The notes below the pieces were generated by a model. It was given only the letters and a program-made list of their open reading frames with translations. It did no database searches and was not told the DNA's origin. From assembly GCF_039503195.1 (NCBI RefSeq), contig NZ_JBCJKP010000001.1, positions 10,664,001 to 10,728,000 on the forward strand: a stretch of DNA of 64,000 nt, in the 5' to 3' direction. Position numbers and translations under genes: made by a program. Below, piece after piece: positions 1,451 to 12,042 of the stretch. This stretch comes from Streptomyces mirabilis (GTDB taxonomy: Bacteria; Actinomycetota; Actinomycetes; Streptomycetales; Streptomycetaceae). Every line of letters starts with the position of its first letter. Position 1 is the stretch's first letter.

Positions 1451-1585
1451 ATGCTGGTAGACCACATCGAGACCCCCGACCTGGCTCCGCAGACCTACCT
1501 CGACGACGAAGCCCCCGAGGTTGCCGTCGACGCACCGGAGGAGCGCGCCTGGCTCCCGTCGTACCAGGCGGTCCGGACCGCCTGA
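1451..1585 (+). CDS. Candidate RiPP precursor peptide, 44 residues
   Basis: A short ORF starts at ATG 1451 behind GAAGGGA at 1438-1444, which is ideal spacing. The product is acidic over residues 4-31 (many Asp and Glu), then changes to a C-terminal stretch RAWLPSYQAVRTA that would suit a core peptide. It has no Cys, so it is not a lanthipeptide or lasso-type cysteine substrate. It is followed by a strong hairpin and then the HExxH/PqqD-like enzyme gene in the same direction, the usual layout of precursor plus modifying enzyme. No homologue is recognised. The assignment rests on size, position, ribosome-binding site and neighbour. It could instead be a small regulatory ORF. Confidence 0.5.
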   Translation: MLVDHIETPDLAPQTYLDDEAPEVAVDAPEERAWLPSYQAVRTA

Positions 1586-1601
1586 CGCGCGGCGCGTCCG
1601 G

Positions 1602-1635
1602 TCGGCACCGGGCCCAAGACAGGGCCCGGTGCCGA
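1602..1635 (+). terminator. Perfect 14-bp hairpin between precursor and enzyme gene
   Basis: TCGGCACCGGGCCC at 1602-1615 and its exact reverse complement at 1622-1635 flank a 6-nt loop (AAGACA). There is no following T tract. It sits 17 nt after the small ORF's stop and 47 nt before the enzyme start. It is probably a partial terminator or mRNA stabiliser that yields more precursor than enzyme, as is common in RiPP operons. Confidence 0.7.
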
Positions 1636-1681
1636 TGCCTTACGTCCACGTCCGCCGCCCGACCCCGAAGGACGGTCCTCG

Positions 1682-3199
1682 TTGCCCGCTTCACCTTCCG
1701 CCGCCGAGCCGGTCACCGACATGGTGGCGCAGGCAGACACCATGCTCTGCGCCGATCGGCAGTTCGGCGACTCCGCCGCCATCGGCGAGCGCAACCTCGC
1801 CCGGTTCCGGCTGGGCCTGACCATGCTGGCGCGGCATGACGGCGAAGCAGCGGACGTGCTGCGGACAACGGCCGCGGCGACCGACGAACACCTCCGCCCG
1901 CTGCTCTACGACCCGGTGCTGCGCAACTGCTTCGAGGTCGACCTCGCGCGGCTGGAGAGCGGCCGACTCGGACACAGCTCGTTCGGCGCCTACGTGAGCG
2001 GTTACGTCCCGACCCCGGCGGCGGACCCCCTGTCCTCCACGGGGCCCTGCGAAGCCCTCATCCGTCCGCACCGGAGTGCCTGGCCCGGTCTCGGGGACGC
2101 CTGGGTGCTGACCGAGCCGACGCCACACGGACGTTCGCAGGAGAAGCTGGCCGGGCGCCTCATGGACCTGTACCGTGGCGCGCTCGGCGACAGCCGGGCG
2201 GCACCCCCGGTCGATCCGGCGGAGAGCGTCCGCGCCGTACTGCGGGAGGGCGCGGAACTCCTCGCGACCCTGTTGCCCGCCGCGGGAGCCGGTGTACTCG
2301 GGCACGTCACCATGGTGGGCTTCACCCACAGGGAGAGCGAAGAGGGCCCCCTGCAGTCCATGTCCGGCGGCGACCCGCTTCCCTCGACGGTGCTGCTGGC
2401 GCCCGAACGCTGCACCTCTCCGTGGCTCGCCGCCGAGAGCCTGCTGCACGAGGGCGCCCACCTCAAGCTCTTCGACGCGCTCCGTACGGGCTCCGTGGTC
2501 AGGAACGCCACCGAGCGCGTCCCGATCCCGTGGCGGATCGGTTCGTGGACGGTCATCCGGGTGTTCGTAGCCCTGCATTTCTACGTGCACCTGCTCGTCT
2601 TCCGGGCTGCGGCGGCCTCCGCCGGTGAAGCGGTCCGGGAGAGGTTCGGGCCGCCCCCGTCGGTCGAGGACCTCGACGAGCCCAGCCCTGGCACGCCGGC
2701 CGCCCACAGCGGGCAATACCGGACCAGTGCGGAACGGGCCCGCTACCTCGCCGAGTGCGTGCTGTCGCTGCCGGAGCAGGCGCTCACCGAGCACGGGCAC
2801 CGGTTCGCCCGCTGGCTCCTCACCACGCTCCGTCTGGTGGACGACGAGGCTCCGCAGCCCCAGGACCGTGCCGAGACGACGACCCGACGGGCGGAACCGT
2901 GGCAGCCGCAGGAGAATCCCTCAGAAGGTGTCCTCCAGCGGATCACCCCGGTGGACGCATGCGCCCTGCCCGGCCTCGGACAACTCGTCGTGAGTCCCAC
3001 GCGGTCGGCCCGAATGCACTGGCTGAACGCGCGCTCGTGGACGGTCTACTCCTTGTGCGACGGACGTGACCTCGGCTCGGTACGCACGGCCTACGCCCGA
3101 GCGGTCGATCTCCCGGCCGACTCGGAGGAGGTCAACCGGCAGGTGAGTGACAGCGTGCGTCGGCTTGTGGCAGCCGACCTCATCACCCACGACATGTGA
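1682..3199 (+). CDS. HExxH-motif peptide-modification enzyme with C-terminal PqqD-like domain
   Basis: A 505-residue protein with HEGAH at residues 256-260 inside a helix (AAESLLHEGAHLKLF). This matches the HEXXH-motif putative peptide-modification family (TIGR04267-like), some members of which are now described as 2-oxoglutarate/iron peptide beta-hydroxylases. Residues about 418-505 resemble a PqqD-type RiPP recognition element (VVSPTRSARMHWLNARS followed by a short helical winged fold), so leader binding and catalysis may be fused. The start chosen is TTG 1682 with GAAGGA at 1667-1672; ATG 1721 is the alternative. It follows the 44-residue ORF. Residue positions are visible. The chemistry is inferred from the family and the target residue is unknown. 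Confidence 0.75.
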   Translation: MPASPSAAEPVTDMVAQADTMLCADRQFGDSAAIGERNLARFRLGLTMLARHDGEAADVLRTTAAATDEHLRPLLYDPVLRNCFEVDLARLESGRLGHSSFGAYVSGYVPTPAADPLSSTGPCEALIRPHRSAWPGLGDAWVLTEPTPHGRSQEKLAGRLMDLYRGALGDSRAAPPVDPAESVRAVLREGAELLATLLPAAGAGVLGHVTMVGFTHRESEEGPLQSMSGGDPLPSTVLLAPERCTSPWLAAESLLHEGAHLKLFDALRTGSVVRNATERVPIPWRIGSWTVIRVFVALHFYVHLLVFRAAAASAGEAVRERFGPPPSVEDLDEPSPGTPAAHSGQYRTSAERARYLAECVLSLPEQALTEHGHRFARWLLTTLRLVDDEAPQPQDRAETTTRRAEPWQPQENPSEGVLQRITPVDACALPGLGQLVVSPTRSARMHWLNARSWTVYSLCDGRDLGSVRTAYARAVDLPADSEEVNRQVSDSVRRLVAADLITHDM

Positions 3200-3254: not shown

Positions 3255-3959
3255 TTACGTACGTGCGGTGCCGGTGCCGGTGCTGGGGTCCGCCGTTTCC
3301 AGGCCGGCCAGCCGTGCGGACACAATGGCCTCCAGGCGACTGGAGACATGGATTTTCGGCAGGATGGCCGAGACGTAATTGCGTACGGTCTTCTCCGATA
3401 TGAACAGCTCCTGCGCTATTCGGCGGTTTCCGTAGCCGAGCGAGACCAATCGCAGCACGTCCCGTTCCCGGTTGGTAAGCGCCGGGAACGGGAGCGTGCC
3501 GTCGGCTTCCGCCAGGCGCACCAGGAGGGCGGAGAGTTCGCCGCCGGTCCGCGGTCCCAGCGTGACGTACCCCCGCTGAACGGCCCGTACGGTGCGCAAC
3601 ACGTCCGCCGTCTCCGTGTTCTTGAGCAGGTAGCCCGTGGCCCCCGCCATCAGCGTGGTGAGCAGCAGGCTGTCGTCGTCGTGCTCCGTGGACACCGCGG
3701 CGATCAGCCGCGGCGCCGGGTACTGTCGACGCAGTTGCTGGAGCAGCCCGATTCCCGCGCGGCCGGGCAGGTCGAGGTCGACGATGACCACATCGGGCTT
3801 CTTCTCCCGGACCGCCCGTACACCGGCGTGCGGGTCGTGGGTCCCTGCGGCGACGGTGATCCCGCCATCTTCTAACGCGGAACGTAAGCCGCCCAGAATC
3901 AGGGGAATGCTCTCTATTACCACTACACGCGTACCGCTATGTCGGACCGCATTGGCCAT
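3255..3959 (-). CDS. NarL/LuxR-family response regulator
   Basis: A 234-residue protein with an N-terminal receiver domain (residues 10-125) and a C-terminal LuxR-type helix-turn-helix (about 165-220, LTNRERDVLRLVSLG and ISEKTVRNYVSAIL). The phosphoacceptor is probably D61 in VVIVDLDLPG, and the conserved Lys is in GYLLKN. The usual acidic pair after strand 1 is replaced by Glu-Ser (VVVIESIPL), which may weaken magnesium binding and phosphorylation. The ATG at 3959 is preceded by GAGGAAGGG. No partner kinase lies beside it. It converges on the HExxH gene with a 55-bp gap. Confidence 0.85.
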   Translation of the reverse strand: MANAVRHSGTRVVVIESIPLILGGLRSALEDGGITVAAGTHDPHAGVRAVREKKPDVVIVDLDLPGRAGIGLLQQLRRQYPAPRLIAAVSTEHDDDSLLLTTLMAGATGYLLKNTETADVLRTVRAVQRGYVTLGPRTGGELSALLVRLAEADGTLPFPALTNRERDVLRLVSLGYGNRRIAQELFISEKTVRNYVSAILPKIHVSSRLEAIVSARLAGLETADPSTGTGTART

Positions 3960-7466: not shown

Positions 7467-8711
7467 TCAGTTCACGGTCCACTTCTGGTTGGCGCCGCCC
7501 GAGCACGACCAGATCTGCAGCCGGGTGCCGTTGGCCGAGCTGTTGCCCGTCGCGTCCAGACACTTGTTGGCCTGCGGGTTCACGATGTCGTGGGCCGCAC
7601 TGACGGCCCACTTCTGGTTGGGCCCGCCCGTGCAGTCCCACAGCTGTACGGTCGAGCCGTCCGCCGTGCCGTTGCCGGTGACATCCAGGCACTTGCCCAG
7701 CGCGCGTATGGTGCCGTCGGAGGAGACCGTCCACTGCTGGGCCGTGGTGCCGTTGCAGTCGTAGAGCTGTACGGGCGTGCCGTTGGCTGCGTTCGCCCCG
7801 GCCACGTCCACGCACTTGCCGGCGAGGCCGGTGATCGGGCCGCCGGCGGACCCCGAACCGTCGCTCGTCGTCACCTTCACCTCGTCCACCACCAACTGCT
7901 GCGGGAAGACGGTGGAGCCGTCGGGGTCGCCCGGCCAGTAGCCGCCGACCGCGAGGTTGAGGATCATGAAGAACGGCTTGTTGAACACCCAGGTCTTGCC
8001 GCCCAGATCGGCGGGCGTGCGCCGCTGGTACACCGTGCCGTCCACCGACCAACTGATCGAGTCGGGGGCCCAGTCGACGGCGAAGGTGTGGAAGGCGTCG
8101 GCGAAGGCCTGGCCGCCCGGCAGGGAGTAGGCGGCTCCGATGCCCCCGGATCCCGAGTACCCGGGCCCGTGGATGGTGCCGTGCACGGTCGAGGGTTCGA
8201 AGCCGACGTTCTCCATGACGTCGATCTCGCCCGAGTTCGGCCAGCCGACCTGTCCGATGTCGCTACCGAGCATCCAGAAGGCGGGCCACATGCCCTGCCC
8301 GCGCGGGATCTTCATCCGCGCCTCGACATGCCCGTAGGTTCCGGTGAACTTCCCGGAGGTGTTCATCCGGGCCGAGGTGTACTCACAACGCCCGTACCAG
8401 CACTGGTAGTTGCCGGGATTCTCGCGACGAGCGGTGATCACCAGGTGACCCTGGCCGTCCAACGTCGCGTTGTTGCTTCCGGACGTGTAGTACTGCCGCT
8501 CGTGGTTGTTGACGTTGTCTCCGGTCTCGATCTGCCACTTCGAGGTGTCGACGCCCGCGCCCGCAGGACCGTCGAACGTGTCGGAGAAGGCGGTGACGGC
8601 CGCGGCCGCCGTGGGGGGATCCGCCTGGGCGGGAACGATGGCGGCAGCGGTGACGAGCGCTGCGGACAACGCTGCCAAGAGGCATCTGCGGAGGAGACGT
8701 GGGGAGTCCAA
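7467..8711 (-). CDS. Secreted GH16 endo-beta-1,3-glucanase with CBM13 (ricin-type) module
   Basis: 414 residues if started at TTG 8711. That start has GGAAGGGAGAG just upstream and gives a clean signal peptide (MDSPRLLRRCLLAALSAALV, Ala-rich to about residue 30). An ATG at 8774 in the same frame is possible but would hide the signal. The GH16 domain spans about 38-275, with catalytic GEIDVMENVG (E162, D164, E167) and the family Trp-rich cleft (GMWPAFWMLG). A beta-trefoil CBM13 domain follows (about 290-414, repeated QxW motifs such as NQKWAVS and NQKWTVN). It should hydrolyse laminarin or fungal-wall beta-1,3-glucan outside the cell. A DasR-like palindrome lies upstream. Confidence 0.92.
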   Translation of the reverse strand: MDSPRLLRRCLLAALSAALVTAAAIVPAQADPPTAAAAVTAFSDTFDGPAGAGVDTSKWQIETGDNVNNHERQYYTSGSNNATLDGQGHLVITARRENPGNYQCWYGRCEYTSARMNTSGKFTGTYGHVEARMKIPRGQGMWPAFWMLGSDIGQVGWPNSGEIDVMENVGFEPSTVHGTIHGPGYSGSGGIGAAYSLPGGQAFADAFHTFAVDWAPDSISWSVDGTVYQRRTPADLGGKTWVFNKPFFMILNLAVGGYWPGDPDGSTVFPQQLVVDEVKVTTSDGSGSAGGPITGLAGKCVDVAGANAANGTPVQLYDCNGTTAQQWTVSSDGTIRALGKCLDVTGNGTADGSTVQLWDCTGGPNQKWAVSAAHDIVNPQANKCLDATGNSSANGTRLQIWSCSGGANQKWTVN

Positions 8712-8818
8712 GACTCTCCCTTCCGTACGGTGCCCTGAGAAGGGGGCGCCGACTGAGGTGGGGGGCGCGTACATCGCCTCTTGATTTAAGGAGTGAGGTA
8801 AGGGGGTGTCAATACTTT

Positions 8819-8830
8819 GGTCCGGACCAG
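8819..8830. promoter_or_regulatory. DasR-like (dre) palindrome upstream of glucanase
   Basis: TGGTCCGGACCA is a perfect 12-bp palindrome that differs only at the centre from the known dre core TGGTCTAGACCA bound by the GntR-family repressor DasR in Streptomyces. It lies 45 bp upstream of ATG 8774 and 108 bp upstream of TTG 8711, a plausible operator position. DasR control of the glucanase by N-acetylglucosamine-derived signals is inference. Confidence 0.5.
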
Positions 8831-8905
8831 CACTTCGGGTTCGGCTCAGGCTGCCTGGGAGTCGCGCCGGTCGCGGACGCGACGGCGGGAGCGCACCGCC
8901 AGGCC

Positions 8906-9185
8906 TCAGCCACCGGCCCAACAGCAGACACAACCCACCAGCACGCCACTGGTGTTGGGGATGACGTCGTCGATGTCGAAGGCGCGCCCGCTGATGACCG
9001 TTACCTGGACCAGTGTCACCAGCAGCATGACCGTCGCGGTGACACCAGGTTCTGTCCGGCGGTTTTTTTCGAGTACCACGGCTGGATCACCGTCAGGGAA
9101 ACCGCGGTTGATGACGACGACGTCCGACGGGGGCAGATCGTCGATGGTCGCGATGACGAGGACCCGGGCTATGAGAAGGAGGTAG
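8906..9185 (-). pseudogene. VanZ-like membrane protein remnant
   Basis: A frame ending in TGA (complement at 8906-8908) reads LLLIARVLVIATIDDLPPSD and then MLLVTLVQVTVISGRAFDID DVIPNTSGVLVG, resembling the last helices of VanZ-family proteins (GRxFDxDDxxxNTxG). The N-terminal half and a start are absent. It is probably a truncated gene. Confidence 0.5.
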
Positions 9186-10529: not shown

Positions 10530-10599
10530 GTCCCAGAGGAACCGGTGGTCATGCCCCTAATCAGCGGTCTGCCAGTGCCTCCGGGCGCCGGTGACACCA

Positions 10600-12042
10600 C
10601 CCCCCCCAGATCGTGATCAACAATGCCGTTGCTTTTGGGGTGTGCGTGGTGTTGAGCCATGCGTGTTGGTGTCGCGTCTGGAGCGGCTGGGGTTGGGCAT
10701 CCTGACTCGGTCGTGTCCTGCTGAGCTGGTGGACCGGGTCGTTGCCGAGGCTGGGTGTGCGGAGAAACGCCGACGTGTGCTGTCGGCCCGGTTCACGGTG
10801 TACTTCGTGCTCGCACTGTGCCTGTTTCCGCAGGCCGACTACCTGGAGGTCCTGCGGCTGGTGAAGGCCGGCGAGCCGACGCTTCGGCCTTGGGCGGGGG
10901 TGAACAAGTCATCTCTGACGCGTGCGAGGCAGAGGCTGGGCTGGCCGGTCATGCGAGAGCTGTTCCGGGCCGTGGCCCGACCGTTGGGCCACAGGACGGA
11001 ACTCTTCCACGGGCTACGGGTCCTGGCCCTGGACGGAATGCTGCTGGCCGTCCCCGACTCGCCCGGCAACCGGGAAACGTTCGGCAAGTCCGGCTCGCAA
11101 CGCAGTCCGATGGGCTATCCGCAGGCCCGGGTGGTCGCGGTGTCGGAGTGCTCGTCGCACGCGGTACTGGACGCGGTGATCGGCGGCTGGAAGGACTCCG
11201 AGCGGATCGTGTCCGACGAACTGGAAGCCCATATCGGGGCCGGGACACTGGTCTTGGCCGACCGCGGACTTTGGGGCCTGGCCCGCTGGCACCGCTTTCG
11301 CGACCGGGGCGCCCACCTGCTGTGGAGGATCGAGCGGCGGGCCGCCCGCAGGGTCCAGGACGTCCTGCCGGACGGAAGTTACCTGGCCCGGATCCAGGCG
11401 AACAAGCACGCCAAGGCTGCCGGAACCGTCAAAGCTCCACCAGCTCTGGTGAGAGTGATTGAGTACCGCGTCGACGGCCAGGCGGACGTGATCCGGCTTG
11501 TCACCAGCCTGACGGACCATGAGGAGTATCCGGCCGCCGAACTCGCCACCCTGTATGCCCGGCGCTGGGAGATCGAGATCGTCTTCGACGAGATCAAGAC
11601 TCACCAGCGCGGCAGACCGGTCCTGCGATCGCAGACTCCGGACGGGGTCAGGCAGGAGATCTATGCCCACCTGATCGTCCACCACGCGACCCGCGACCTG
11701 CTCAACGAGGTGGCCCGGATCGCGCAGACTTCCGCCGATCGGACATCGTTTACCCGGGCCCTGCATGTGGTCCGCCGCTCGGTGATCGCGCCGTGCGGCT
11801 TTTCCCCCCTCAGCCCGAAATCATGACCGTCTGCTCGGCCTTGCCGAGATCCGCTGGTCTCTCCTGCCACGACGACGCTCACGCGACTGCCCCCGCAAAC
11901 TGAAGTCGTCGATCACCCCGTTCAGCGGCAAGGCCCCCGACGAACCTGCTAGCCACCGCCGCCCATCAGCCGTCATCACGGTGAACCACAGATGGCAGTA
12001 ACCACCAAAAGCAACGGCATTGTCGTGATCAACAGGGGGGGG
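10600..12042 (+). mobile_element. IS4-family insertion sequence, about 1.44 kb
   Basis: Both ends carry eight C/G bases and an inverted 18-bp block CAATGCCGTTGCTTTTGG (left 10621-10638, right as its complement near 12005-12022). Between them TCGTGATCAACA appears in direct orientation at both ends (10611-10622 and 12023-12034). The element encloses one transposase gene. No clear target duplication is visible. Confidence 0.65.
10642..12001 (+). pseudogene. IS4-family DDE transposase with C-terminal frameshift
   Basis: From GTG 10642 the frame runs to a TGA at 11824-11826. The DDE residues are D131 (LALDGM), D207 (LADRGLWG) and E312 in the IS4 signature Y305-(2)-R308-(3)-E312-(6)-K319. The N-terminal IS4 domain (CPAELVDRVVAEAG) is present. 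After a T4C6 homopolymer near 11808 the frame is lost. Removing one base lets it continue (RLLGLAEIRWSLLPRRRSRD CPRKLK) to a TAA at 11999-12001. The catalytic core is intact and only the tail is affected, so activity is uncertain. A sequencing error or programmed slippage is possible. Confidence 0.75.

Follow-up and report, generated by a model that had tools for sequence, protein, structure and literature searches.

How little is needed to make an oxidised peptide by the route of ribosomally synthesised and post-translationally modified peptides (RiPPs)? The question is raised by a gene pair in a 64,000-nucleotide stretch of Streptomyces mirabilis DNA (the window, G000:C1:10664001–10728000, part of an 11.1-Mb genome), in which a 44-residue peptide gene (1451–1585, + strand) is followed by the gene of a 505-residue HExxH enzyme (1682–3199, + strand). 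The original prediction described a 44-codon open reading frame (ORF), a 14-bp hairpin and a 505-residue HExxH protein, accurately in each part, and its interpretation of the locus as a minimal RiPP-like pathway is supported by the present analysis. Together, the tiny gene and the adjoining iron-enzyme gene have the appearance of a pathway pared down to a minimum and widely conserved in actinobacteria, whose product would be an oxidised small peptide of a family previously unnamed.

A conserved precursor peptide adjoins the enzyme

The ORF at 1451–1585, with a coding stretch of 132 bases, encodes the short, acidic peptide MLVDHIETPDLAPQTYLDDEAPEVAVDAPEERAWLPSYQAVRTA. Its likely core, starting at about D27, is DAPEERAWLPSYQAVRTA and contains no Cys, as predicted. 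In a conservation set of 25 loci, taken from a scan of genome contigs with the enzyme, 23 carry the precursor ORF upstream of the enzyme gene. This confirms the conservation of the small ORF on which the original prediction had staked itself and provides the conserved short precursor gene beside a modifying enzyme that characterises a RiPP pathway. The exceptions are L033, where the locus begins at a contig edge, and L047 (Kitasatospora sp. Root107). Around position 7840 of L047, the precursor's first ~19 residues are followed by no ERxWxP in frame; this copy is either broken or an assembly error. ERxWxP is present, by contrast, in a relative (P0130) from Kitasatospora sp. Root187. Seven of eight close genus loci, a second set overlapping the first, also have the precursor, the eighth (L010) being a contig of 3,091 bases. 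The peptide is carried by Streptomyces, Nonomuraea, Microtetraspora, Sphaerisporangium, Streptosporangium and Actinorhabdospora, and is found in L053, the genome of another genus within the same class. The distribution is nonetheless sparse: 8 of 392 genomes in the genus (E < 1e-100) and 2 of 394 in the class (E <= 1e-40), own genome included in both counts and just three candidates scored per genome.

Alignment of 26 precursor rows reveals five invariant residues, M1, E31, R32, W34 and P36; beyond P36 residues vary widely, whereas ERxWxP does not. Over 12 Streptomyces loci, the ratio of nonsynonymous to synonymous polymorphism (pN/pS) is 0.345 overall, 0.379 for the leader and lower, at 0.254, for the core. 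A profile search yielded 42 database relatives, among which some genes are represented by two versions. All 42 possess ERxWxP together with D/E four residues before the E, 39 have ERAW, and none bears an informative name, all being unnamed, "uncharacterized" or "hypothetical". No named family was matched by the window peptide in NCBIfam or Pfam, or by five relatives in NCBIfam. As a rough sign of co-occurrence, 18 of the 42 apparently share a source genome with an enzyme match.

A putative HExxH oxygenase carries a predicted leader-binding domain

The enzyme starts at a TTG codon, at the same place as several homologues, and its closest named homologues are from Streptomyces mirabilis and S. 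diastatochromogenes (95% identity each). As the original prediction anticipated, its product belongs to TIGR04267, the alpha-ketoglutarate (aKG)-HExxH-type peptide beta-hydroxylases, with 49.2 bits against a curated cut-off of 40, and its predicted catalytic fold is that of ChlBHExxH. Alignment places the HExxH motif at residues 256–260 (HEGAH; 2447–2461, + strand). This motif, R285 of a P-W-R motif and H303 are invariant in 30/30 aligned members, and HExxH, P-W-R and the later His align with ChlH (PDB 8s5f). The enzyme class is already known. Three further TIGR04267 matches are present in the genome (L001, L002 and L003; G000:C1 near 4.97 and 4.67 Mb); about 4 kb separates two of these, which are encoded on opposite strands.

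Residues 416–505 (2927–3196, + strand) are predicted to form a three-strand, three-helix winged-helix domain of ~90 residues, the fold of a RiPP recognition element (RRE); structure comparison bears out the RRE/PqqD-like character that had been proposed for this C-terminal region. A possible docking site for such a domain is the leader motif I6-E-T-P9 (hydrophobic-x-x-P) of the window precursor. By eye, [IV]-x-x-P occupies residues 6–9 in 25 of the 26 alignment rows (exception, L050). Among database relatives, [IV]xxP is placed 20–27 residues before the core E in 41/42, P0100 having LDVP. Leader shuffles (n=300) averaged 5.6 such cases and never exceeded 12, with a distance window chosen after the sequences were seen. 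In PMC12710340, YxxP is given as the recognition sequence of lasso RREs, with hydrophobic substitutions such as LxxP. A lasso RRE, found independently of the leader motif, tops the structural match list, but is tied with other RREs.

An inverted repeat separates the two genes

Between precursor and enzyme, a hairpin with 14-bp perfect arms and a 6-nt loop is present at 1602–1635 (+ strand). Within 100 nt downstream of the precursor, 14/26 loci have a perfect stem of >=10 bp, starting 6–32 nt past the stop. Mononucleotide shuffles reached the stem in 0/200 cases in 12 of these 14 loci and in 5/200 in L036, with L025 left out. By eye, stem sequences differ between genera, and therefore position rather than sequence seems kept. 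No T-tailed hairpin terminator was seen by eye at 1602–1635, and no promoter, terminator or Rfam scan was run. By analogy with RiPP operons in general, the hairpin probably maintains a high precursor-to-enzyme ratio.

A proposed single-enzyme pathway

We consider it likely, short of confident, that the locus represents a RiPP cassette of minimal size, in which the 44-residue precursor undergoes RRE-guided oxidation by a single fused HExxH enzyme. The fused RRE would bind the precursor via the N-terminal hydrophobic-x-x-P leader motif and so present the core to the iron site, where the Fe(II)/alpha-ketoglutarate-dependent HExxH domain would oxidise at least one residue of the D-x-x-x-E-R-A-W-x-P core (D27–P36), most likely by beta-hydroxylation. 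The best candidate sites would be the invariant E31, R32, W34 and P36, together with acidic residue 27. The residues known to be hydroxylated by members of the class are Asp, His, Gln, Pro and Phe/ortho-Tyr (PMC12636437, PMC13060819, PMC12707348); with targets this diverse, the site in the window precursor cannot be predicted. A neighbouring regulator probably controls expression, of the NarL type in the window and of the SARP-NB-ARC-TPR type (SARP, Streptomyces antibiotic regulatory protein) in other genera. The analysis establishes the gene pair, its conservation, the family assignment and the predicted folds; we infer leader binding, oxidation of this peptide and its site, the lack of other modifications, regulation and export of the product.

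Several results weigh against this proposal. The TIGR04267 match covers just profile positions 2–136 of 177. The PqqD likeness of the original prediction holds as a predicted fold and fails at the profile level, PF05402 (PqqD) giving 14.6 bits against a gathering cut-off of 23.4 and being matched at E <= 0.01 by 10/30 relatives; the domain is not filed under PF05402, and the claim on its fold, which comes from structure prediction, stands apart. The C-terminal piece alone matched no NCBIfam family, its best RRE match by Foldseek has an E-value of 0.078, and the structural matches TbiB1, TigE, MibB, 6jx3 and MccB are separated by less than 1 Z unit, a near tie that leaves the RRE subclass undecided. 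A loose [IVLM]xxP is present anywhere in the leader in 42/42 relatives but averages 26/42 in shuffles, which leaves the placed motif as the only one that carries weight. When precursor and enzyme were modelled as one tethered chain, with the precursor stop read as W and the spacer in frame, precursor residues 1–30 reached a middling predicted local distance difference test (pLDDT) score of 65–76 and residues 35–83 fell below 50; at this middling confidence, no clear leader strand was placed on the RRE, where a bound leader would lie between beta3 and alpha3, and the strand assignment of the enzyme barely changed. Perfect stems of >=10 bp are missing in 12/26 loci, and the control of the hairpin test was mononucleotide shuffling. 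No protease was detected among the 10 neighbouring proteins scanned in the window genome (Pfam, E <= 1e-5; not every ORF). The adjacent, divergent major facilitator superfamily (MFS) transporter gene (699–1302, − strand) is broken, so the pathway may be impaired in the window strain; compared with intact relatives, the remnant covers only residues 1–172 (gapped) and 356–434. Finally, the characterised relatives consulted act with radical S-adenosylmethionine (SAM) or multinuclear non-heme iron-dependent oxidase (MNIO) partners (PMC12636437, PMC12707348, PMC13060819), and PflC/PosC also cleave the peptide backbone (PMC12636437). In the neighbourhood part examined, the single-enzyme arrangement of the original prediction stands, no second modifying enzyme having been found nearby; its "hydroxylation-only" clause is something one can only infer, because characterised relatives also cleave oxidatively, and hydroxylation as the reaction, let alone the sole one, is unproven.

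Alternatives to oxidation by one enzyme

The backbone cleavage by PflC/PosC keeps open a rival that we regard as unlikely, in which the enzyme, like PflC/PosC at ARMD, cuts the precursor oxidatively near the conserved W-x-P-[YF] region and leaves an amidated peptide. PflC and PosC are of the same class, hydroxylating Gln as well as cleaving oxidatively, and when the leader is missing PflC is proteolytic (PMC12636437). The lack of a protease among the 10 scanned neighbours would fit a self-cutting enzyme, and the variable tail past P36, set against a constant ERxWxP, is what a discarded tail would look like. Against cleavage, the precursor alignment contains no ARMD-like invariant tail, and ChlBH, BipH and PesO are reported as hydroxylases (PMC12636437, PMC12707348, PMC13060819).

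Improbable to a somewhat greater degree is a pathway that is not single-enzyme, in which enzymes encoded elsewhere add other modifications in trans and the HExxH enzyme performs one tailoring step. The genome holds 19 radical SAM matches (the nearest about 112 kb from the pair), a single MNIO match (2.9 Mb from the pair) and the three other TIGR04267 matches, and the characterised aKG-HExxH enzymes consulted act with the partners named above. Relatives' neighbours were compared by script gene calls and BLAST clusters, with only selected ones identified by Pfam, so a rarer partner enzyme could be missed. Against action in trans, immediate neighbours vary by clade, and the only gene families that recur directly beside the pair are regulators and the MFS gene, the latter in some Streptomyces, most neighbours being clustered rather than identified; the precursor core has no Cys.

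That the small protein is an accessory or inhibitor of the enzyme, whose target would be something else, is very improbable: the peptide is short and acidic and has no known product, but the split in conservation between leader and core, the fused RRE and a core invariant in 42/42 relatives are typical of a RiPP precursor. Least credible is a decaying copy, functional in relatives and dead in the window strain, for although the MFS gene broken here is intact beside the precursor in L026, L020, L030, L035 and L036 (partial in L032), the precursor and enzyme frames are open with the invariant residues present, and five close loci without an MFS match (L027, L028, L029, L031 and L034) indicate that it is not essential.

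Regulators and other neighbouring genes

A NarL-type response regulator (3255–3959, − strand), convergent with the enzyme, is a possible pathway regulator. Its convergent orthologues, sharing 73–97% identity (rows below 55% were left out of the listing), adjoin the pair in 8 of 11 close Streptomyces loci (L026–L036). Of the 14 loci L037–L050, 11 (L037, L039–L046, L048 and L049) have a SARP-NB-ARC-TPR cluster gene next to the pair. It lies downstream and convergent in seven of them, upstream and codirectional in three, and divergent in one; Pfam confirmed this architecture in all four scanned (L037, L040, L042 and L045). One may speculate that the oxidised ERAWxP peptide serves for signalling and not as an antibiotic, in which case an HExxH-RRE fusion would make a one-enzyme RiPP pheromone that the adjacent regulator reads. 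We give this idea little credence; if true, it would amount to hydroxylation-gated peptide signalling in actinomycetes.

Past the convergent regulator, genes for an LCM-type methyltransferase and a periplasmic-binding protein precede that of a GH16 glycoside hydrolase with a ricin-type lectin domain (7467–8933, − strand); an IS4-family transposase gene lies farther on (10591–11826, + strand). Upstream, a histidine kinase and NarL-type regulator pair extends over the left edge of the window (−1991 to 371, − strand; L051:10009–12371). Oligopeptide-type ATP-binding cassette (ABC) transporter cluster genes are found near the pair in L037, L038, L047 and L029; L037 has such sets on both sides, one ATPase being confirmed by Pfam. 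Three Nonomuraea loci (L040, L041 and L043) have a binding-protein/ABC set upstream of the pair, possibly for siderophores, and the L040 binding protein is Peripla_BP_2 by Pfam.

Two further candidates were rejected. The sole genome match to TIGR04269, of the FxsB radical SAM system, scores 27.6 bits against a cut-off of 370 and is 7.9 Mb away; the C-terminus of the window precursor is not FxSxx, the motif of that system. A plasmid-borne copy was sought by megablast in a plasmid collection, with no match.

Implications of a proposed two-gene system

As far as the searches show, three things are new: the family of ERxWxP precursors, the fusion of an HExxH enzyme to an RRE, and a cassette in which no further modifying enzyme is apparent. 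No description of the fusion or of an ERAW precursor was found in the literature searched, which is weak evidence, as most subscription journals lay outside its scope; within it, TIGR04267, IPR026337 or a similar name turned up in PMC7726476 and PMC12636437. The recognition of aKG-HExxH enzymes as peptide oxygenases is recent, and the characterised examples consulted reside in multi-enzyme clusters. The family described here may be the simplest of its kind, a 132-base coding stretch and one enzyme with its own predicted leader-binding domain, and two genes would suffice to test recognition and site choice by aKG-HExxH oxygenases. Its 42 database precursors give genome mining a new starting point, and function can be tested through the invariant ERxWxP core and the linkage to regulators.

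Comparison with known systems

SjiH (PDB 22ob), with a solved chain of 409 residues, is known to us from its PDB title only, and nothing relevant to it was found in the literature. Another close system is the lasso-peptide B1 RRE (TbiB1, 5v1v) with its YxxP leaders; here the predicted RRE is fused to an oxygenase instead, and the scan of 10 neighbouring proteins revealed neither a lasso B2 peptidase nor a C cyclase. BipH/BpmH (biphenomycin) and PesO (nitrilobacillin) are, like the window enzyme, aKG-HExxH proteins of RiPP clusters, reported as hydroxylases, and BipH is likewise from Streptomyces. Each is one of several enzymes in clusters with an MNIO, that of biphenomycin also with a B12-radical SAM enzyme, and the biphenomycin core, FRFRS, is unlike ERxWxP.

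The Pseudomonas enzymes PflC/PosC resemble the window system as HExxH enzymes acting on a RiPP precursor in a reaction dependent on its N-terminal part (PMC12636437). The features of their own reported there, namely a nitrile hydratase leader peptide (NHLP)-type leader, an MNIO-nitroreductase partner, an ARMD tail, two transporters and an acetyltransferase, are not seen here. ChlBH (ChlBHExxH, PDB 8s5f) from Chlorogloeopsis differs in turn, there being no radical SAM match near the window pair: in ChlBH the HExxH domain is fused to a radical SAM domain, whereas here it is fused to an RRE.
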